DNA of 33,581 nucleotides from an uncultured Verrucomicrobiota bacterium (lineage in GTDB: Bacteria > Verrucomicrobiota > Verrucomicrobiia > Chthoniobacterales > JACTMZ01): contig CAJBKE010000038.1 of the NCBI GenBank assembly GCA_903953565.1, positions 1 through 33,581 on the forward strand. The letters run 5' to 3'. A model generated the notes under the pieces. It was given only the letters and a program-made list of their open reading frames with translations. It searched no databases and was not told the DNA's origin. A program made the position numbers and the translations under genes. Shown piece after piece: positions 6,624-33,581 of the stretch (position 1 is its first letter; every line of letters begins with the position of its first letter).

Positions 6624-7004
6624 CTAGCGCGGCGCCTGGATCAACTCGATCTCGTAGCCTTCCGGCGCGTCGATGAAGGCGAAGACCGTTCCGGTCGAGG
6701 ATGTGGTCGGACCATCGGAAAGCGGATGACCCTTGGCCGCCGCGTCCTTGGCGAATTGCTCCAAGTCCTCGACCTCGAAGGCGAGATGGGTCAGATCAGG
6801 CCCGACTACCACTGGTCCGCTCCCCGGATACGAGCAAATTTCGATCAGTTCCTCGCTGCCCGGTGTTTCCAAAAAGACCAACTCGGATCCGCGCGGCGAT
6901 TTATGACGGCGGATTTCCTTCAGACCGAGCACGTCCTTGTAAAAATTGACCGTCTTCTCGAGGTCATTCACACGGTAACGGGTATGGAGCAGCTTGGTAA
7001 CCAT
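6624..7004 (-). CDS. gloA: VOC-family protein, probable lactoylglutathione lyase (glyoxalase I)
   Basis: This 126-residue vicinal-oxygen-chelate protein has two beta-alpha-beta-beta-beta modules. Candidate metal ligands are H7 in LLHTRYRV, a Glu in ELIEICSYP, the His in LTHLAFEV and the Glu in YEIELIQ near the end. The segment VNFYKDVLGLKEIRR is typical of glyoxalase I. That enzyme converts the hemithioacetal of methylglyoxal and glutathione (or another thiol) to the lactoyl thioester in the cytosol. It lies 12 bases downstream of the chelatase-like gene and 10 bases upstream of the toxin gene. Other VOC enzymes of this size are possible, so the substrate is inferred. Confidence 0.83.
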   Translation of the reverse strand: MVTKLLHTRYRVNDLEKTVNFYKDVLGLKEIRRHKSPRGSELVFLETPGSEELIEICSYPGSGPVVVGPDLTHLAFEVEDLEQFAKDAAAKGHPLSDGPTTSSTGTVFAFIDAPEGYEIELIQAPR

Positions 7005-7016
7005 AGATACGTCTTA

Positions 7017-7862
7017 TCACGAGGTGCCCGGGCTTGTCTGCCCGTTTCGCGGGACCCCCTTGGCGCAAAGTTCCCACGAATGCACCTGGTCGAGGATCAC
7101 CTCGGCCATCCCCGGATCCGTCCCCACCGCGCGCGAATAAAAAAGCCGCCGCCCCTCGAGCAGATAGGGATTCCTCCGCTCCCGCTCCTCCGCCCCCCCG
7201 CCGCCCGGAATTCCCAACAAACCCGGAATGTCCTCATCGCTGTGCAAACCGTCCGCGATGAAAAACGGCACCGCGATCACGTCTTGGCACGCCGTGATCT
7301 CACACCAGTCTTCGATCTTCGGCGGCGTTTCCATGAACGCCCCGTGCACCTCGGCAAAAATTCCGCGCGCCTTGATGTCCGCGACCTGTGCCTCGACCGC
7401 CTCGGAACTCCTCGTATCGAGCGGCGTCCCGTGCCCGAGCACGAGTAGTGCCGCCTTGGCATAATCGACCCCCGGAGCCACCCCGCGCGCACAATGCAAA
7501 AGCACCTCGGTCATGCGCGGATGACCTCCCACCGGCAAACACAACCGCAAGACCTGCCCGTTCTCCCGCCGCGTCACCGGACCAATCAAAGCGAGTTCCT
7601 TCGGGATGACATTGCGCACAAAATATCCCTCCACCGTGAAATTCGGCACAATGAAAACCTCCGGCATGGTGAGCGCATCCAGCGCCTCCCGCAGTCCGGG
7701 TTCTTCTTTCCAGAACCCGCAACTCACCTCGCCGAATAGTCCCGACTCCCGCAGACGCTCCGTCAATTCCCGCGTCGGTCGACTCGACGTGGCATTGACA
7801 CTCGACCCGTGCGCCAGCACGAGCAGCGCCGCCTCGGGTTTCGGAGCAAAAGGAGCCTTCAT
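7017..7862 (-). CDS. Two-domain CbiX-like sirohydrochlorin chelatase family protein
   Basis: Two chelatase repeats are visible in 281 residues. The first has ALLVLAHGSS near residue 12 and VFIVPNFTVEGYF. The second has ALLVLGHGTP near 142 and VIAVPFFIADGLHSDEDIP. CbiX/SirB enzymes insert Co2+ or Fe2+ into sirohydrochlorin for cobalamin or siroheme. The second domain keeps both metal-site histidines; the first keeps only the HG one, with Tyr where the other is expected. I chose the ATG at 7862 because the frame upstream of it runs through a dispersed repeat (7876-7920). No other tetrapyrrole gene is nearby, so the substrate is uncertain. It starts a probable unit with the glyoxalase and toxin-antitoxin genes. 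Confidence 0.75.
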   Translation of the reverse strand: MKAPFAPKPEAALLVLAHGSSVNATSSRPTRELTERLRESGLFGEVSCGFWKEEPGLREALDALTMPEVFIVPNFTVEGYFVRNVIPKELALIGPVTRRENGQVLRLCLPVGGHPRMTEVLLHCARGVAPGVDYAKAALLVLGHGTPLDTRSSEAVEAQVADIKARGIFAEVHGAFMETPPKIEDWCEITACQDVIAVPFFIADGLHSDEDIPGLLGIPGGGGAEERERRNPYLLEGRRLFYSRAVGTDPGMAEVILDQVHSWELCAKGVPRNGQTSPGTS

Positions 7863-9284: not shown

Positions 9285-9333
9285 TCCAAACCGGCCTATT
9301 TGACTCCGGCACGCGGCGGACTAGGTTGACTAT

Positions 9334-9645
9334 ATGAGATTCGCAGTGCTGCTTCTGTTGCTCTTCAGTGTGGCCGCCGCCCCGCTGTCTCTCGCCGGAG
9401 CATCGCCTATGCCTGCCGCCGAGGCCTGCGCTTCCGCATGTTGCCAGTCCTCGGACGACTGCTGCGCCAAGGCCTGCCAGTGTCCGCCCCTTTCCTGCCA
9501 TGCTCCGGCCGCGCCATCCGCCATGATCCCCGCCGGACAACCCCTCGCGATTTTCTCGCCCGGCAGTTCGGACCGCGTCCGACTGACCGATGATACCTGC
9601 TCCGAGCGGACCTCACGTCCGCCCGTTCCACCGCCGCGAGCCTGA
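9334..9645 (+). CDS. Small exported cysteine-rich protein
   Basis: A clear signal peptide, MRFAVLLLLLFSVAAAPLSLAGA, is followed by a cysteine-dense stretch with eight Cys in about 27 residues: EACASACC, DDCCAKACQC, PPLSC. One more Cys lies near the end, and the tail is SRPPVPPPRA. The mature protein would be periplasmic or outer-membrane associated. Paired cysteines suggest metal binding or disulfide cross-links. The Pro/Arg tail recalls small proteins found with heavy-metal efflux genes, but none are nearby, so that link is weak. It follows the antiporter gene and precedes a second cysteine-rich gene on the same strand. I do not recognise a named family. Confidence 0.68.
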   Translation: MRFAVLLLLLFSVAAAPLSLAGASPMPAAEACASACCQSSDDCCAKACQCPPLSCHAPAAPSAMIPAGQPLAIFSPGSSDRVRLTDDTCSERTSRPPVPPPRA

Positions 9646-9721
9646 GGGCTCACATGGCGTCGGCTTCCGTCCTTGTTGGCGGAAGGAAAATTGGAACGAA
9701 ACCTCAACGGAGATTCAAAAA

Positions 9722-9853
9722 ATGAAAAAATTCATCTTCGCACTTCTGGCGGTCGTCGCCTTGGCCTTCACGGCCACGGCCGCGGCTCCCTGCACCTGCA
9801 CCGACTGCGGCGGCAAATGCTGCCCCTGCGACTGCAGTGCCGGCTGCTGCTAA
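9722..9853 (+). CDS. Exported cysteine-rich mini-protein (43 residues), metallothionein-like composition
   Basis: The ATG at 9722 has a GGAG ribosome-binding site about 11 bases upstream. It encodes a signal peptide, MKKFIFALLAVVALAFTATA, with an AAA cleavage region. The mature part, of about 22 residues, has nine Cys: APCTCTDCGGKCCPCDC then SAGCC. CxC, CxxC and CC spacing is what metallothioneins use to bind Cu(I), Zn or Cd, but those are usually cytosolic. A strong terminator 25 bases after the stop supports a real transcript. The longer frame from 9590 overlaps the previous gene and lacks a signal peptide at its start, so I rejected that start. Function is unknown; periplasmic metal capture or thiol chemistry is an inference. 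Confidence 0.78.
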   Translation: MKKFIFALLAVVALAFTATAAAPCTCTDCGGKCCPCDCSAGCC

Positions 9854-9877
9854 CCTGACCGCCTAGTCAGAACTCAC

Positions 9878-9909
9878 ACGCGCCCCGGGAAACCGGGGCG
9901 CGTCGTTTT
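9878..9909 (+). terminator. Strong rho-independent terminator
   Basis: An 11-base perfect stem (9878-9888 with 9893-9903) made almost entirely of G-C pairs is capped by a GAAA tetraloop and followed by CGTTTTA. It ends the transcript of the cysteine-rich mini-protein gene, possibly including the antiporter gene. Confidence 0.85.
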
Positions 9910-9924
9910 ATGCCGGCAAAGTGG

Positions 9925-13481: not shown

Positions 13482-16037
13482 TTACCAGTCTCTAATGACA
13501 TCCTGAAAGTTCTGACGTTCGCGCAGATCGACCTGTTCCTCCTCGCTCTGTAAAGAACGGAGCAGGGCGCGAGCCTGGGAAGCGCTCATTTTGCCCTCCT
13601 CTTCCTCTTCGGCGACGGCCATGGCGGTGGCGCCTTCTTTTTTCTCGTCGCCGCGCTCGCCAGCCGCTCCACCGCGCAATTCGCCCTGCTTCTTGTCTCC
13701 GGCCTGTTGCGGCACGGCCGCGGGTTTGTCGCCTGCTTTGCCGGGCTCGGGGCGTGATCCGGCCGAAGAACCTTGGTTGCCCTGGGGCTGATCCTGTTTT
13801 TCTTCGTCGCCCTCTCCGCCCTGTTGCTGCTTTTGCTCGCCCGGTTTTTTACCGCCTTCTTTTTTCTCTTCACCCTCGCGGCCCTCGCCGTCCTTTTGCT
13901 GCTCGTCCTGCTGACCGCCGCCGCCTTGCTGTTGCTCGTCTTTTTTCTGCTCACCCTCTTTGTCCTGCTCTTCTTTCCCGCCGGACCCCTGCTGTTGCTG
14001 GTCCTTTTGCTGCTGGCCTTCTTTGTCCTGTTCCTCTTTTCCGCCGGAACCCTGCTGCTGTTGATCTTTCTGCTGCTGGCCCTGCTGGCCTTCCTCTTTT
14101 TTGCCTTCGCCTTCTTGTTGCTGGTCTTTTTGGCCTCCCCCGCCCTGCTGTTGCTGGTCCTTCTTTTGCTGGCCGGACTGCTCCTGCTCTTTTTTACCTC
14201 CATCAGCGGACGGCTGTTGCTCCTTCTGCTGCTGACCGCCTTGCTGCTGGTCTTCCTTCTTCTGGTCACCACCCTGTTGCTGTTCGTCCTTTTTCTGCTG
14301 CTGATCCTTTTGCTGCTGCTCTTGGTCCTTCTGACCGCCGCCGCCCTGTTGCTGTTGCTGGTCTTTGTTCTGTTGATCTTTTTGTTGTTGGTCCTTCTGA
14401 CCTCCACCGCCCTGTTGCTGCTGGTCTTTGTTCTGCTGACCACCCTGCTGCTGGTCTTCCTTCTTCTGATCGCCCCCACCTTGCTGTTGATCTTCTTTCT
14501 TCTGGTCACCCCCACCTTGCTGTTGATCCTGCTTTTGTTGCTGACCGCCCCTCTGCTGCTGGTCTTTTTTCTGATCTTTCTTGTTGTCTTTCTTCTGCTC
14601 TTGTTCGAGCTGTTTGAGCAGTTCCTCGACCCGCTCCTTGTTTTCTTTTGCCTCGGTGTAGTCGGGACGCGTCTTGAGCGCCGCGTCGTATTTGGCGATG
14701 GCGTCTTTCCAGTCGGTGACTTTCTTTTCTTTGTCTTCTTGTCCCTCGCCTTGGCGGAAAAGCGTATTACCGAGGTTGAACTCGGCGGCCGAGCGCAATG
14801 CGGGCTCCTCGGAGAGCATGGCGCGCGAAAAATATTCGGAGGCCTTGCCGTAATCCTTGAGCCGGTAAGCCGCCGTCCCCGCATTCATTTGCAAATCGGG
14901 CGCGTCGGGCTCCATGCTAAGACGCTGCTCGAAAGCGCTGCGCGCCGTCTCATAGTCGCCCTGCTCGTAAGCGGTCAATCCGGACGGCGCGGACCAAGCC
15001 GAACCGGCAGCGAGGAACCAGCAAGCCAACCCCAAGGCCGGACGCCGGCGGCGCTCGCCGACCAGGGCCTGCAGGGCGAGCAGCACAATGGCCGCACCCA
15101 GCGGCCACTGGTAACGCTCGATGGGCCGGCGCGAGGCACTCGCACTCATCTCGACCTCCTTCATTTGCCCGATCCCATCGGCGACCAAACGGCGCGCCGC
15201 ATCCTCGTCGAGCGGCACATAAAATCCTCCGGTGATCTCGGCGATTTCCGTCATGCGTGAAGCGTCGAGTCGCGATTGCACGACTTTGCCCGAGGCATCG
15301 CGGACGAATTCGCCCGGACCGAGCGGAATTTCCGAACCTTCCTCCGATCCGACGCCCACCGTGAAAATACGGATGCCGTTGGCCGCTGCTTGCCGCGCAG
15401 CCTCGAGTCCGTCCGCGTCGAGTTCCTCGCCGTCGGAGACGATGACGATGGCGCGGGAAAATCCTTCCGCTTTGCCAAAAGCCTCTTCGCAGGTGCGGAT
15501 GGCTGCGGCAATGTTCGATCCGCCTTTCGGGATGAGGTCGGTGTCGAGTTCATCCACTGCAGAGAGAACCGCGCTGTGATCGAGCGTGAGCGGCGCCTGC
15601 AAAAACGCCGAGCCGGCGAAAGCGACCAGACCGAGACGATCGCTGCCCAATTCGCTGACCAGATCCTCGGCCAGCAGCTTGGCCCGCTCCAAACGCGTCG
15701 GGGCCACGTCCGTGGCCAGCATGGAACGCGAGACATCCATGGCGATGATGACATCGCGCCCCTTGTGCGGAACCTCGAGAGTGTCATAACCGATCCGCGG
15801 ACCGGCCAGCGCCACGGCCAACAATCCGAGCGCACCGAGCACGCAGGCATTGCGGAACCAGCGGCGCATCGGACTAGTGCTGCCCGCAAGGAGCGCGCGC
15901 AGTTTCGGGGCAACGATGCGACCGATGAGGGCGCGTCGCCGCCGCTCGGCCCACCAAAAGAGGAGAAAGCCCAGCGGCAACAGCCACAGGATATTGAGCC
16001 ACGCGGGGCTGGCGAAAGTCAGGGCAGTCGTCTCCAT
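13482..16037 (-). CDS. BatB-BatC fusion: VWA membrane protein with TPRs and a long Gln/Lys/Gly-rich tract
   Basis: The 851-residue protein joins two usual Bat proteins. Residues 1-330 are BatB-like: transmembrane helices at about 12-30 and 63-80, a VWA domain with metal-site motif D101-x-S103-x-S105 in MDVSRSM, and a third helix at 312-327. Residues 332-851 are BatC-like. They open with a hydrophobic stretch ending SAWSAPSG that reads like a former signal peptide, followed by TPRs (about 352-470). A Gln/Lys/Gly/Asp/Glu tract fills about 478-757, and a conserved tail follows with MSASQARALLRSLQSEEEQ. The ATG at 16037 overlaps batA by 19 bases. The VWA part should sit in the periplasm or cytosol next to BatA. 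A long Leu-rich frame on the opposite strand (13773-15260) is a shadow of the repeat. Confidence 0.88.
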   Translation of the reverse strand: METTALTFASPAWLNILWLLPLGFLLFWWAERRRRALIGRIVAPKLRALLAGSTSPMRRWFRNACVLGALGLLAVALAGPRIGYDTLEVPHKGRDVIIAMDVSRSMLATDVAPTRLERAKLLAEDLVSELGSDRLGLVAFAGSAFLQAPLTLDHSAVLSAVDELDTDLIPKGGSNIAAAIRTCEEAFGKAEGFSRAIVIVSDGEELDADGLEAARQAAANGIRIFTVGVGSEEGSEIPLGPGEFVRDASGKVVQSRLDASRMTEIAEITGGFYVPLDEDAARRLVADGIGQMKEVEMSASASRRPIERYQWPLGAAIVLLALQALVGERRRRPALGLACWFLAAGSAWSAPSGLTAYEQGDYETARSAFEQRLSMEPDAPDLQMNAGTAAYRLKDYGKASEYFSRAMLSEEPALRSAAEFNLGNTLFRQGEGQEDKEKKVTDWKDAIAKYDAALKTRPDYTEAKENKERVEELLKQLEQEQKKDNKKDQKKDQQQRGGQQQKQDQQQGGGDQKKEDQQQGGGDQKKEDQQQGGQQNKDQQQQGGGGQKDQQQKDQQNKDQQQQQGGGGQKDQEQQQKDQQQKKDEQQQGGDQKKEDQQQGGQQQKEQQPSADGGKKEQEQSGQQKKDQQQQGGGGQKDQQQEGEGKKEEGQQGQQQKDQQQQGSGGKEEQDKEGQQQKDQQQQGSGGKEEQDKEGEQKKDEQQQGGGGQQDEQQKDGEGREGEEKKEGGKKPGEQKQQQGGEGDEEKQDQPQGNQGSSAGSRPEPGKAGDKPAAVPQQAGDKKQGELRGGAAGERGDEKKEGATAMAVAEEEEEGKMSASQARALLRSLQSEEEQVDLRERQNFQDVIRDW
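13767..14606 (-). repeat. Low-complexity tandem repeat region in batBC
   Basis: About 280 codons repeat imperfect units such as KKDQQQQGGG, KKEDQQQGG and KEEQDKEGQQ. Codons CAG/CAA, AAG/AAA and GGC/GGT dominate, so the + strand is CTG/CTT-rich. Adjacent units are similar but not identical, as expected of a tract that grows and shrinks by slippage or unequal crossover. Its length is therefore likely to vary between strains. The frame is intact throughout. Confidence 0.85.
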
Positions 16038-17041
16038 ACGGTTTGTCCGAGCAAAGTTTCCGCGGCGAGCAGGACCGTGCCGACCAGCACGAACCACGGG
16101 AACAGGTCCCGGTATTGCGCGACCTTTTGGATCTCGACCTCGGATTTTTCCATTTTGTCGATTTCCGTGAAAATGCGCTGCAGGGACTGCGTGTCGGTCG
16201 CGCGAAAATATTCGCCGCCGGTCATGGCCGCGATGGCCTTGAGGCTCTGCTCGTCGAATTCCACCGGGATCTGGCGGTAAACAGTGCGGCCGAACGGATC
16301 GACAAACGGGAACGGCGCATTGCCGCGGCTGCCAGATCCGATGGTGTAGACCTTGATCCCGAGCGCCTTGGCCGCCTCCGCCGCGGTGAGCGGGGTGACG
16401 CGTCCCATGTTGTTGTCGCCGTCCGTGAGCAGAACGACGATTTTCGATTTTGCTTCCTTGTCCTTGAGGCGGGTGGAGGCGGCGGCCAGCGCGGAGCCGA
16501 TGGCCGTGCCGTCCTCGACCAAGCCGATGCGCGTGCGCTCAAGATTGGTGATGAGCCAGTCGTGGTCGAGGGTCAGCGGACTGACCAAGTAGGGGCGTCC
16601 GGCAAAGGCCACGATACCGATCCGGTCGTTCGGGCGCCCCTCGATGAATTTTTCCGTCACCTGCTTGACTGCCTCGAGCCGGTTGGCGCGTTGCGCGCCG
16701 ATGGTGAAATCCTCGGCCAGCATGGAGCGGGAGACGTCGATAACGAGCATGATGTCCACGCCGCTGGCCTGCGTGCGGGTGATCGTTTTGCCGAGCTGCG
16801 GACGAGCCAAAGCAAGAATGAGACAGGCCAAGGCGAGATAAAGCAGCCCGGTGAGAAAATCTCCGGCGCGCGAGCGGCGACGGCCGCCGATTTTCGCAAT
16901 GGTCTGGGTGGTGGAAAACATCACGCCGGGCGTGCCGCCGAATTTTCCTTTCAGCCACGCGAGAAGAGGAATGAGCAGCAACAGCCAAAGAAACTTCGGC
17001 TGCGCGAAGATCAGATCCGAGAAGTCAGGAAGCGACGGCAT
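16019..17041 (-). CDS. BatA-like VWA-domain membrane protein
   Basis: The 340-residue protein has an N-terminal helix (about 16-30), a second helix (about 62-80), a VWA domain (about 95-290) and a C-terminal helix (about 312-332). The metal-ion site has D102-x-S104-x-S106 in VIDVSRSM, followed by the usual NDRIGIVAFAGRPY and VLLTDGDNN segments. BatA and BatB are paired VWA proteins held at the cytoplasmic membrane that are thought to work with the MoxR ATPase. Its start overlaps the DUF4381-like gene by 17 bases and its end overlaps batBC by 19. The assignment is firm at family level. Confidence 0.9.
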   Translation of the reverse strand: MPSLPDFSDLIFAQPKFLWLLLLIPLLAWLKGKFGGTPGVMFSTTQTIAKIGGRRRSRAGDFLTGLLYLALACLILALARPQLGKTITRTQASGVDIMLVIDVSRSMLAEDFTIGAQRANRLEAVKQVTEKFIEGRPNDRIGIVAFAGRPYLVSPLTLDHDWLITNLERTRIGLVEDGTAIGSALAAASTRLKDKEAKSKIVVLLTDGDNNMGRVTPLTAAEAAKALGIKVYTIGSGSRGNAPFPFVDPFGRTVYRQIPVEFDEQSLKAIAAMTGGEYFRATDTQSLQRIFTEIDKMEKSEVEIQKVAQYRDLFPWFVLVGTVLLAAETLLGQTVWRRLP

Positions 17042-30091: not shown

Positions 30092-33000
30092 TCAGCGGAT
30101 GCGCTGGGCCGCGAGGCGGTCGCGCGTGGGAGCGCGCAGGCCGAGGATTTTCTGGGCGTCCTTCAAGAGACGCTTGCGCGACGGCCAGAGCATCAGGCCG
30201 AGTAGCGCGGCCGCCGCGAGGTAAGTCGAGGGCTCCGGGATGGCCGTGATGGTGAAGGTCGTGCCATTCCACGAAGAGCTGGCGATGCCGCCGTTGGTGA
30301 AGGTGAAGAACGACGAGTTGTTGATCGTGCTGGTCAGGTCGGAACCGAAGGTCAGCGTGCTGCCGTAATCGAAGTTGTTGATGGTGAGCAACGCGCTCGG
30401 GGTGTAGGTGCCGAAGTTGATGGTGTTGGCATTGGCATATGACGTCGTGCCGAAGTCGAGGAAGCCGCTGCCGGTCACGGAGAGATTGCCGAAAACTTCG
30501 CTGACCCCCGCCGCGGTGCGGATGGTGCCGCCGGAGAGCGTGACCGCTGCGGAATCGCTCACCTGCCCGCTCTGCGAAACAAGCAGCGTGGCATTGGTGG
30601 CGACTGAAAGGCTGCTCACCGAACCCAGCGCCGAACCCGAGGCGCTGTTAAGATTGAGCGTTCCTGCGCTGACTGTCGTCGCACCGGTGAACGAATTGCT
30701 TGCGGTCAAAAAGAGCGTTCCGATGCCGTTCTTGGTCAGCGACCCGCTGCCGCTGATCGCGTTGGACTGTGTAATGCTGTCCGAGCGATTGAAAATCAAG
30801 GAGGCAAAGTTGGTGATGGCTCCCCAGAGCGATCCCGTTGTGCCGCCGTTGCCGAATTGCAAGGCGCCCGCGCTGATCAAGGTGCCGCCCGAGTAGGTGT
30901 TGGCGCCGGAAAGCGTGAGTGTTCCAGCCCCCGACTTCGTCAAGCCGCCGCCGCCGCTGAGGGCGCCGGAGTAGGTCGTGCTGCTGTTGTTGCCGCCCAC
31001 ATTGAGCGCCACCACACCGCCCGAGGCATTGGTCAGGGCCAAGTTAGTCGAACCCTGCAAGCCGCCCAAGTTCGCGCCGGTCAAGTTGCTGAAGGAAATC
31101 CTTCCCGCGCTGGAGTAGTCCAGTGTGCTGCCGCTCAACGCGTTGGTGTTGGCCAAGGAGAGCACCCCGGCACTGACTGTGGTCGTGCCGCTGTAGTTGT
31201 TGCTCGCGGAGAGGACCAATGTGCCGGCGCCGTTCTTGGCAAGGTTGCCCGCCCCGGTGATCGACCCGGTGAGCGTGAGTGCGGTCGTGCTGTTGCTCAC
31301 GTTGATCGCGCCGGTGCCGCCCGAGGCGAGACTGAAAGTTTTCGTGCTGCCCGCCGTTGCGCCGGTGTAGAGCAACTCACCCGTCGTGCCCGCGGCACCC
31401 AGCACAACCGCGTTGGCACTATTGCCCAGAACACCGTTGGCGCTGGCGTTGTTGATTGTGGCAATGGAAAGCGAACCATCTTGCACACTCAACACTCCAG
31501 AGAAGGTGTTCGCGCCCGACAAGGTCGCGGTGCCCGCTCCGCTCTTGGTCAAGGCACCCGATCCGGCCAAGACCGACGATACCGTTCCCGCATTGGTCAA
31601 CGCGTAGCTGGTCGCGGTCAACGTTCCGTTGGTCAGATTTCCGGAATCCAGGGTGAAGGCACCGTTGGTCCGGCTGAGTCCGCCCAGATTCACCGTCCCG
31701 GCACCGATCGAAACATTGCCATTCGTTGCACCCAACCTTCCCGATCCGCTCAGCGTTAACGTGCCCTCAGCGACAACTGTCCCCCCCGAATAGGTGTTCG
31801 CACCCGCAAATATGAGGGTTCCGCTGCCGGTTTTGGAGATCGTGTTTGTGTTTGCTCCGCTGACCACGCCGCTGAAGGTGACCGCTCCAACGTTCGTGTT
31901 CCCACCACCGACCTGAACCGTCAAATTGCCGGTGAGAGCGGGGTAGTTGTTGCTGATGACGATGTTCGTGGTGGGTTGATCGTCATTGTTGAAGAGGATC
32001 GAGCCAGCCGTGGCGAAATTAGCCGCGTTGGATACCACCAGCGTTCCAGAGCGATTCGCGAGCCCACCACCCGAAACGATGGTGATGGAGTTCGTTACAA
32101 TGTTCGTATTCGCATTAATTTGGAAGGCGAGCGTTGCAGCATTGGAGACGGTGATCGCGGAACCAGCGATATTGCTGAGGGAATCAAAGACAAAGAGCCG
32201 TCCACCTTGTACACCGATGGCCCCGATATTGTTGGTCTTTCCTGTCCCGTTCAGAATCAAATCACCCCCCTGCTTGTCCAGCCCCCCTCCGCCAGTGATG
32301 CGCCCACTCCAAAAAGTGTTGCCCCCAGCCACAAAGACCGTCGCTCCGCCGTTGGTCAGCACAAAGCTGTTTGTGAGTGTGGTTGAGTTATCGGTTATGC
32401 TGAACGTCGCTTTATTGGTGATCGTCACGGTATTCGCACCCAAGTTATTGGACGATGCAACGGAGAGCGTGCCACCGAAGAGGGAGATGCCGCCGGTGAA
32501 GGTGTTCGTCGCACCCAGCGTCAGAGTGCCCGTTCCTATCTTGGTCAAGCCGCCGGAACCAGAGATCACCCTGCTGGCCGATATCGCGCCATCCCCACCG
32601 AAGGTTTTGCCAAAATTGCCACCGATCGTGTTGGTCAATTGCAGGGTGCTATCTGCGTCCGCAGAGATGGTCGATGCAGAGCCTAGGGTGATTGCACCGC
32701 CGTAGGTGTTGGTGCCGGCAACATTCCGCAGCGCACCGCCCGAATTGATACCGGTCCCGTTAAGCGTCAATGCTTCGGCACCGATGGTGATTCCGCCCTG
32801 CAACTCGAGCGCCGCGCCCGATCCGACCGTTGTCCCGCTGTTGGTCGCGCCAAGGCCCGCATTATTTTGAATATTGAGCACGCCTGCCCCGACCGTCGTC
32901 GTCCCGCTGTAGGTGTTCGCGCCCGAGAGAATCAGCGTTCCGCCGTTGGTCTTGACCAAGGAACCGCTGTTGCTGATCACCCCGGAAATAGTCAGATCGG

Positions 33001-33581
33001 TTGCCGCGTTGGTCACCCCGATCACGCCGATGCCGGAGGCCAGATTGATGTTGCGGTCGATCGAGACCGTCGAGCCTCCATATTGCAGCACGCCGCCGTT
33101 GGTGATGATGATCGTCCCGTTCGTGCCGATTGAGCTGTTCTGACCCGCGTTGGCCAAGGTGCTCACGTTCAACACACCAGCACCGATCGTCGTCGTGCCG
33201 CCGTAGCTGTTGGCCGTGCCGGAAAGAATCTGTGTGCCCGCACCGACCTTGACCAGCCCGCCCGAACCGCTCAGATCGCCGGAGAAATTGTTCGTCGCGC
33301 TGTTGGACACCGTGAGCGTCGCGCTGCCCAAGGTCACCGTGCCGGCGCCGCTGACGCCGTCCACCGTGTCGCTGATGCTGTTGAAGTCGAAGGTCGCTCC
33401 GTTGGAGACCACCACCGACGAGGCGTCGGCGATGCGACCGCTGCCGGAAAGTCGCGCCACGCCGGCGCCGATTAGCGTGTCACCCGTGTAGGTGTTGGCC
33501 GCGGCGAGGATCAGCGTGCCCGCGCCCTGCTTGGTCAGACTGCCGGTGTTCGAGATGATCCCTGTGTTGGTCAGGACGAAA
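30092..33581 (-). CDS. Very long autotransporter-associated beta-strand repeat protein with PEP-CTERM signal (partial, start outside window)
   Basis: The frame is open from the window edge to 30092, about 1,160 residues, so the N-terminus is missing. At least ten copies of a repeat like GTLTLSGANTYSGGTT..AGVL are visible, typical of passenger-associated (PATR) beta-strand repeats that stack into a beta-helix. The C-terminus has AIPEPSTYLAAAALLGLMLW followed by basic PSRKRLLKD: a PEP-CTERM signal that exosortase should process, rather than an outer-membrane barrel. The protein is probably displayed on or released from the cell surface. Composition is Gly/Thr/Ser/Asn-rich. An internal GTG at 33460 is not the start, because the repeats continue upstream. 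The + strand frames over it are shadows. Confidence 0.9.
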   Translation of the reverse strand, partial: FVLTNTGIISNTGSLTKQGAGTLILAAANTYTGDTLIGAGVARLSGSGRIADASSVVVSNGATFDFNSISDTVDGVSGAGTVTLGSATLTVSNSATNNFSGDLSGSGGLVKVGAGTQILSGTANSYGGTTTIGAGVLNVSTLANAGQNSSIGTNGTIIITNGGVLQYGGSTVSIDRNINLASGIGVIGVTNAATDLTISGVISNSGSLVKTNGGTLILSGANTYSGTTTVGAGVLNIQNNAGLGATNSGTTVGSGAALELQGGITIGAEALTLNGTGINSGGALRNVAGTNTYGGAITLGSASTISADADSTLQLTNTIGGNFGKTFGGDGAISASRVISGSGGLTKIGTGTLTLGATNTFTGGISLFGGTLSVASSNNLGANTVTITNKATFSITDNSTTLTNSFVLTNGGATVFVAGGNTFWSGRITGGGGLDKQGGDLILNGTGKTNNIGAIGVQGGRLFVFDSLSNIAGSAITVSNAATLAFQINANTNIVTNSITIVSGGGLANRSGTLVVSNAANFATAGSILFNNDDQPTTNIVISNNYPALTGNLTVQVGGGNTNVGAVTFSGVVSGANTNTISKTGSGTLIFAGANTYSGGTVVAEGTLTLSGSGRLGATNGNVSIGAGTVNLGGLSRTNGAFTLDSGNLTNGTLTATSYALTNAGTVSSVLAGSGALTKSGAGTATLSGANTFSGVLSVQDGSLSIATINNASANGVLGNSANAVVLGAAGTTGELLYTGATAGSTKTFSLASGGTGAINVSNSTTALTLTGSITGAGNLAKNGAGTLVLSASNNYSGTTTVSAGVLSLANTNALSGSTLDYSSAGRISFSNLTGANLGGLQGSTNLALTNASGGVVALNVGGNNSSTTYSGALSGGGGLTKSGAGTLTLSGANTYSGGTLISAGALQFGNGGTTGSLWGAITNFASLIFNRSDSITQSNAISGSGSLTKNGIGTLFLTASNSFTGATTVSAGTLNLNSASGSALGSVSSLSVATNATLLVSQSGQVSDSAAVTLSGGTIRTAAGVSEVFGNLSVTGSGFLDFGTTSYANANTINFGTYTPSALLTINNFDYGSTLTFGSDLTSTINNSSFFTFTNGGIASSSWNGTTFTITAIPEPSTYLAAAALLGLMLWPSRKRLLKDAQKILGLRAPTRDRLAAQRIR

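Follow-up and report, generated by a model that had tools for sequence, protein, structure and literature searches.

Two adjacent genes in a 33,581-nucleotide stretch of DNA from an uncultured Verrucomicrobiota bacterium (the whole stretch is referred to here as the window) encode small, cysteine-rich proteins with predicted export signals, and the first of these, ORF1, is probably (at a rough probability of 0.58) a leader that senses metal and governs translation of the second, ORF2, a putative exported metallothionein-like peptide. The switch is most likely ORF1, with ORF2 as the controlled product, because ORF1 ends in a proline-rich, stall-like sequence at a near-fixed distance from its Cys motif, an anatomy that resembles that of the CutF leader. 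Judging from its sequence, the pair is best explained as a self-contained unit with its own promoter-like site and terminator.

A first-pass annotation of the window had described 9334-9853 as a pair of exported, cysteine-rich small proteins of no known family. Both frames are real and both products are Cys-rich with signals that, as judged by eye, would direct export, but the two are not equivalent, ORF1 having a CutF-like leader anatomy; likewise, the lack of a known family holds for ORF2, whereas the nearest known group for ORF1, by sequence features, is CutF/CruR/DUF2946. The features of the locus are as follows:

9300-9327, + strand: promoter-like site (TTGACT 9300-9305, 16-bp spacer, TAGGTT 9322-9327)
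9334-9645, + strand: ORF1, 103 aa; orthologs in 7/11 genomes of the genus, relatives across the order
9618-9711, + strand: predicted long-range pairing in the fold of the window, TCCG 9618-9621 with CGGA 9708-9711
9619-9642, + strand: codons for PPVPPPRA at the proline-rich, stall-like C-terminus of ORF1; no variation within the genus (ORF1 alignments)
9664-9685, + strand: intergenic hairpin, CTTCCGTC / GGCGGAAG, without a T run; present in nearly every module (a related gene pair of this layout)
9709-9712, + strand: putative ORF2 ribosome-binding site GGAG, read from the sequence, ahead of the ATG; kept in most orthologs
9722-9853, + strand: ORF2, 43 aa; orthologs in the same 7 genomes as ORF1, 9/9 Cys invariant
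9878-9910, + strand: ORF2 terminator, an 11-bp stem (ACGCGCCCCGG / CCGGGGCGCGT) followed by a T run; retained downstream of ORF2 across the genus

Distribution and genomic context of the pair

Within the genus, ORF1 orthologs are confined to the same 7 of 11 genomes (the window's counted) that carry ORF2, and the pair is always adjacent. Among the carriers is a MAG deposited as Chthoniobacter flavus (CAMBUL010000003.1), a species of the order Chthoniobacterales, Verrucomicrobiota. Completeness is 65-90% in the four genomes of the genus that lack the pair, and some of these absences may therefore be gaps. An operon with the upstream CitMHS_2 transporter was rejected because the two are inherited independently, with two carriers lacking CitMHS_2 and two non-carriers possessing it; gene order around the transporter differs in an empty-site comparison of genomes G007 and G009, which therefore provides no clean empty site.

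Searches with an ORF1 profile extend the relatives to other families of the order, and a broader profile gave matches in 51 of 213 genomes; across 387 genomes of the phylum no match to the ORF1 profile lay outside the order, and none was found in plasmids. A tiny exported Cys-rich ORF lies 53-98 nt downstream on the same strand in 45 of 52 ORF1-type loci, and these 45 modules span 13 genera and four families. The follower peptides are 40-63 aa long and strongly different between genera, with varying Cys number and spacing (mature parts include KSCPTCCKDQDCKTCCKGKCDECANCNK, SRSADCCGGGACCLLKSSCCAK and TKSSACCGKDKCCSTGCCKK). Of 2361 open frames with 100 codons or more in the same DNA, 40 have a tiny exported Cys-rich follower, and 39 of these 40 contain PP within the last 15 codons. 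The identical distribution of ORF1 and ORF2, together with the order-wide 45/52 pairing, supports control of ORF2 by ORF1.

The gene next after the peptide encodes a heavy-metal-binding domain (HMBD, PF19335) in nine modules from other genera, and four more have HMA, metal-ATPase or further HMBD genes no more than 5 kb away; two HMBD and one HMA, with neighbours, were confirmed by Pfam and the rest were assigned by motif. No metal gene of the scanned kinds is adjacent or within 5 kb in the window's own genus, which weakens the case for a metal-sensing leader.

Several ORF1-type loci without a peptide belong to a different family ending in PPxPPPR. This second small family of the order, GxHPCxxC ... 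PPxPPPR (L298, L305, L372, L374, L377), is followed by an HMA-like or other larger gene and by no tiny Cys-rich peptide, and is possibly another set of CutF-like leaders. At a further locus (L028, genome G034, reverse strand, ~7004-7574) two small exported Cys-rich peptides, beginning MKKSFFAFLVIVTFALSTAFVQASGCCGCGSCGGK and MKKSFFAFFVIVALSASFVQAEGCCGSCGGK, lie near each other, and no ORF1-type gene was seen upstream.

Extension of the ORF2 Cys framework beyond the genus was also rejected: among 387 genomes of the phylum a 7-Cys DNA pattern gave mostly low-complexity or chance matches, and that pattern with one Gly added, run against genome and viral contigs, gave mostly chance or low-complexity sequence among the matches listed, one of which is informative. 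This is a Planctomycetota contig (MAG OFTM347, JAJDEP010000007.1; L389 ~900-1640, also L058), found among the matches listed in the reference-genome scan for the Cys pattern, which carries MLTLNAFAASSVATILVALASAVEVACDCAACGGGCCPCCCC; a Cys-rich frame (CSACCVPC, 36 residues, then PPPQTRCP) ends ~67 nt upstream. As no relatives of this peptide occur in 98 related genomes, the layout is taken as a lead only; if it is truly the same, the module would have arisen or spread beyond the phylum.

ORF1 and known leader ORFs

Sensing by a leader ORF is an established principle, and DUF2946 and CutF-like proteins are known examples (PMC9973294, PMC9426467). In Rhodobacter capsulatus, CutF (cutFOG) monitors periplasmic copper while it is itself being exported (PMC9973294, PMC8456105); it contains C69xxxC73 and the C-terminus PEPEGPPPRL, with C73 to P114 giving 40 residues from Cys to PPP (PMC8456105), and its target is a multicopper oxidase with a Tat signal (PMC9973294, PMC8456105). 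In Bordetella pertussis CruR, CXXC and RAPP are 45 residues apart and copper leads to Rho-dependent transcription end; CruR gates a TonB transporter across a gap of 162 nt (PMC9426467), and later in vitro work demonstrated its arrest at RAPP (PMC12992588).

ORF1 (MRFAVLLLLLFSVAAAPLSLAGASPMPAAEACASACCQSSDDCCAKACQCPPLSCHAPAAPSAMIPAGQPLAIFSPGSSDRVRLTDDTCSERTSRPPVPPPRA) consists of an export signal, a Cys cluster (C32-C55), a variable linker and the C-terminal SRPPVPPPRA. CutF-like proteins have been selected as being shorter than 150 aa, with an export signal, a Cys/His motif, PP in the last 15 residues and a close next gene; a stem-loop masking the ribosome-binding site of that gene and its metal-dependent control are further features of the group (PMC9973294). 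With 103 aa, ORF1 is below the 150-aa limit; its Sec signal looks typical by eye, a Cys motif precedes the proline end, PP falls within the last 15 residues (RPPVPPPRA) and 76 nt separate it from ORF2. It shares with CutF small size, predicted export, a central Cys motif, a C-terminal PPPR and a short structured gap to the next gene, but contains CC, CxC and C clusters instead of CxxxC, and the next gene encodes, here and in the other modules, a 40-63 aa exported Cys-rich peptide rather than a multicopper oxidase.

ORF1 relatives are ~96-114 aa long, and their proline-rich end (mostly RPPVPPPR) is located 5-8 residues from the C-terminus. The Cys-to-PPP distance is 43 residues in the window and exactly 40, as in CutF, in 25 of the 45 modules; a Cys is found 37-44 residues ahead of PPP in 44 of 45, despite varying linker sequence. 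This near-fixed spacing and the CutF-like features (the signal being judged by eye) support the leader reading. The observation that the proline motif of CutF alone failed to stall a reporter (PMC9973294) weakens it.

The same genes could instead encode stable exported metal handlers standing side by side, with ORF1 a periplasmic metal chaperone or sponge, ORF2 a small thiol sponge and no nascent-chain control. Both are Cys-rich, predicted to be exported and inherited together, and CutF was likewise initially taken for a chaperone (PMC8456105). However, ORF1 is highly variable beyond its Cys motif and last residues while its linker length is near-constant, as expected of a nascent-chain device and not of a folded chaperone, and the length of the intergenic gap is conserved and its hairpin covaries (see below), making the side-by-side arrangement unlikely.

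Resemblance to DUF2946 (PF11162) is confined to relatives of the window's ORF1, which is itself unmatched: weak matches occur in 4 of 15 ORF1-type members, with a best score of 19.5 bits against a cut-off of 23.7, and two genomes have no DUF2946 match other than the ORF1 locus, which again falls below the cut-off. CruR and DUF2946 proteins share with ORF1 a leader-like arrangement, in which a Cys motif ~45 residues from a C-terminal proline arrest motif heads metal-related operons, but differ in the 162-nt gap, which is short here, and in RAPP. The window's ORF1 has neither CXXC nor RAPP, ending in RPPVPPPRA instead; CXXC is present in many relatives. The resemblance among relatives is in favour of a leader function, whereas the lack of RAPP and the sub-threshold scores count against it.

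Promoter placement and RNA between the genes

The window's −10 box ends 6 nt ahead of the ORF1 ATG, a layout common to 7/7 carrier genomes of the genus. TTGA-N16-18-TAnnnT, with a −10 box ending 5-10 nt before an in-frame ORF1 start, is present in 39 of 45 modules. Shuffled sequence would be expected to yield 4.2 such cases, and the arrangement precedes 18 of 558 other ORFs in this DNA. Given this short distance, ORF1 mRNA is probably leaderless, a further difference from CutF, and this layout, with the metal-gene neighbours in other genera, supports the leader reading.

Across 21 related modules, the intergenic hairpin shows two-sided changes at 6 of 12 predicted pairs, four of which changed in 8-11 sequences. 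The predicted TCCG/CGGA pairing between the ORF1 end and the ORF2 start overlaps the ORF2 ribosome-binding site, and a second predicted stretch joins CGTTCCA (9624-9630) to TGGAACG (9692-9698). ORF1 ends pair better with their cognate ORF2 leaders than with leaders from other genera; permutation at the genus level gives p=0.004, or p=0.0027 when the ORF1 end is lengthened (these being the two lengths used), and p=0.12, 0.93 and 0.71 for three control regions; the strongest cases form ~9-11 bp between the Pro-Pro-Val codons CCTCCTGTT and AACAGGAGG. This predicted pairing is a candidate switch structure, and the hairpin covariation and cognate pairing are consistent with ORF1 governing ORF2. Weighing against this, when accessibility of the ribosome site was modelled in the presence and absence of the ORF1 end, the difference was not significant (p ~0.1), and just 4 bp contact the ORF2 ribosome-binding site in the window. 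In several modules the site can alternatively pair with the first ORF2 codons. No Rfam family scores above its gathering score at the ORF1-ORF2 locus.

A leader could also act in the opposite sense, as in CruR, with metal releasing the ribosome and Rho-dependent termination turning ORF2 off, in which case ORF2 would be made under metal shortage, for example as an exported metal-acquiring peptide. The DUF2946 resemblance of ORF1 relatives and the precedent of CruR itself (PMC9426467) speak for such a scheme, but CruR needs RAPP and a 162-nt gap, whereas ORF1 ends in a CutF-like PPPR and its gap is short and structured; a thiol-rich sponge is better suited to metal excess, and the HMBD neighbours fit detoxification without proving it. 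CruR-type control is therefore regarded as improbable.

The ORF2 peptide and proposed mechanism

ORF2 (MKKFIFALLAVVALAFTATAAAPCTCTDCGGKCCPCDCSAGCC) can be divided into an export signal of approximately residues 1-20 (MKKFIFALLAVVALAFTATA) and a mature part (AAPCTCTDCGGKCCPCDCSAGCC). As in ORF1, the signal was judged by eye from its basic n-region, hydrophobic core and an A-x-A site in orthologs. The first-pass description of nine Cys in a mature part of about 22 residues is borne out: the mature peptide has 22-23 residues with the pattern CxCTDCGGxCCPCxCxAGCC, and all nine Cys are invariant in seven genomes. No open frame with at least nine Cys in 22 residues arose in 40 Markov shuffles of the window, compared with two in the real sequence. 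The frame is conserved in relatives, as that annotation would have it, with orthologs in six other genomes of the genus at 74-93% identity over full length, free of internal stops, and a pN/pS of ~0.5-0.6 among the genus orthologs. Its suggestion of a metallothionein-like, exported and probably expressed protein is backed by this conservation and by the putative promoter, ribosome-binding site and terminator.

SmtA, MymT and Neurospora metallothionein are tiny, Cys-dense, cytosolic proteins with CC, CxC and CxxC patterns. ORF2 resembles them in size, Cys density and patterns but differs in carrying an export signal, and is probably an exported metallothionein-like peptide, for which extracytoplasmic capture of copper or a similar metal, among the roles already proposed, is the best reading of the sequence. 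Pfam, NCBIfam and PDB searches with ORF2 returned nothing notable, and metallothionein models (Pfam, NCBIfam) gave no match up to E=1. A lipoprotein was rejected, ORF2 having no lipobox (LPAM_1 17.3, cut-off 20) and AAP, KPA, KEA, ATP or QEV preceding the first Cys in orthologs.

Bufferins (DUF2282/Buf2) are Sec-exported Cys-rich peptides that sequester periplasmic copper and require an MNIO enzyme and a partner (PMC12452194). ORF2 is likewise Cys-rich and predicted to be Sec-exported, but is much shorter and matches nothing in Pfam; of 10 carriers searched, 9, the window's genome among them, lack the MNIO enzyme (PF05114), whereas a control Caulobacter genome was positive, and an assignment as a bufferin or MNIO peptide was rejected. 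The alternative of a disulfide-bonded peptide, either structural, as suggested earlier, or antimicrobial, or else of a modified peptide (RiPP), would suit an oxidising periplasm, and in other small exported Cys-rich peptides disulfide bonds or enzymatic modification (bufferins, PMC12452194) are frequent, but it has little chance of being correct given the missing enzyme, the odd number of Cys in CC, CxC and CCxCxC runs, which suits thiolate clusters, and a Cys count and spacing that vary between genera in a way that a single disulfide fold would hardly tolerate.

By analogy with CutF, the preferred reading of ORF1 as a sensing leader would operate as follows. ORF1 would be exported during its own synthesis, so that its Cys cluster arrives at the translocon or in the periplasm before the proline-rich end has left the ribosome, and metal bound to this cluster may hold the ribosome there. 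The held ribosome would alter RNA pairing among the ORF1 end, the intergenic hairpin and the ORF2 start, allowing ORF2 to be translated. ORF2 would then be exported through the Sec pathway and processed, and its mature part, with nine Cys, may serve as an extracytoplasmic sponge that binds a thiophilic metal, Cu(I) being the likeliest.

We tentatively extend this to an order-wide module, a somewhat less secure proposal, in which a leaderless CutF-like nascent-chain metal sensor is joined to dedicated, fast-diversifying tiny exported metallothioneins; metal outside the cytoplasm would then directly turn on translation of the sponge exported there. Leader-ORF copper sensing has been demonstrated for CutF, with a multicopper oxidase as target, and for CruR, with a TonB transporter, and here seems to be tied to a new target class, exported metallothionein-like peptides too small and variable for family searches. 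The papers on CutF-like and CruR leaders cited here, apart from the supplementary lists of CutF-like neighbours, contain no description of the ORF1-ORF2 pairing or the peptides. The layout provides a search rule for any genome (a proline-ended Cys-rich leader, a ~65-nt gap and a tiny exported Cys-rich ORF), and the 45 natural variants, differing in Cys motif, spacing, hairpin and target peptide, would make the holding of a ribosome by a metal-bound nascent chain directly testable.

Three further observations concern other sequences. The Cys codons of ORF2 (window 9784-9866) are matched by Rfam family RF01504 (Afu_254), whose annotation is that of an Aspergillus fumigatus sRNA, at 43.1, against a gathering score of 60; in the frame of ORF2 the Rfam consensus reads as a Cys-rich, metallothionein-like C-terminus, PCSCNCCSSNCNSCSCCSCGL, followed by a stop, so the A. 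fumigatus 'sRNA' may be a coding gene. Elsewhere in the window, 13482-16097 (− strand) encodes a von Willebrand/TPR-type membrane protein, BatB-like by eye, which adjoins BatA- and BatD-like genes and contains a very long Q/K/G-rich low-complexity region with QQGGGDQKKED repeats, the length of which varies between relatives. A 1122-aa repeat protein at 30092-33460 (− strand) has, by eye, autotransporter-like strands and an apparent PEP-CTERM sorting signal near its end (PEPSTYLAAAALLGLMLWPSRKR).
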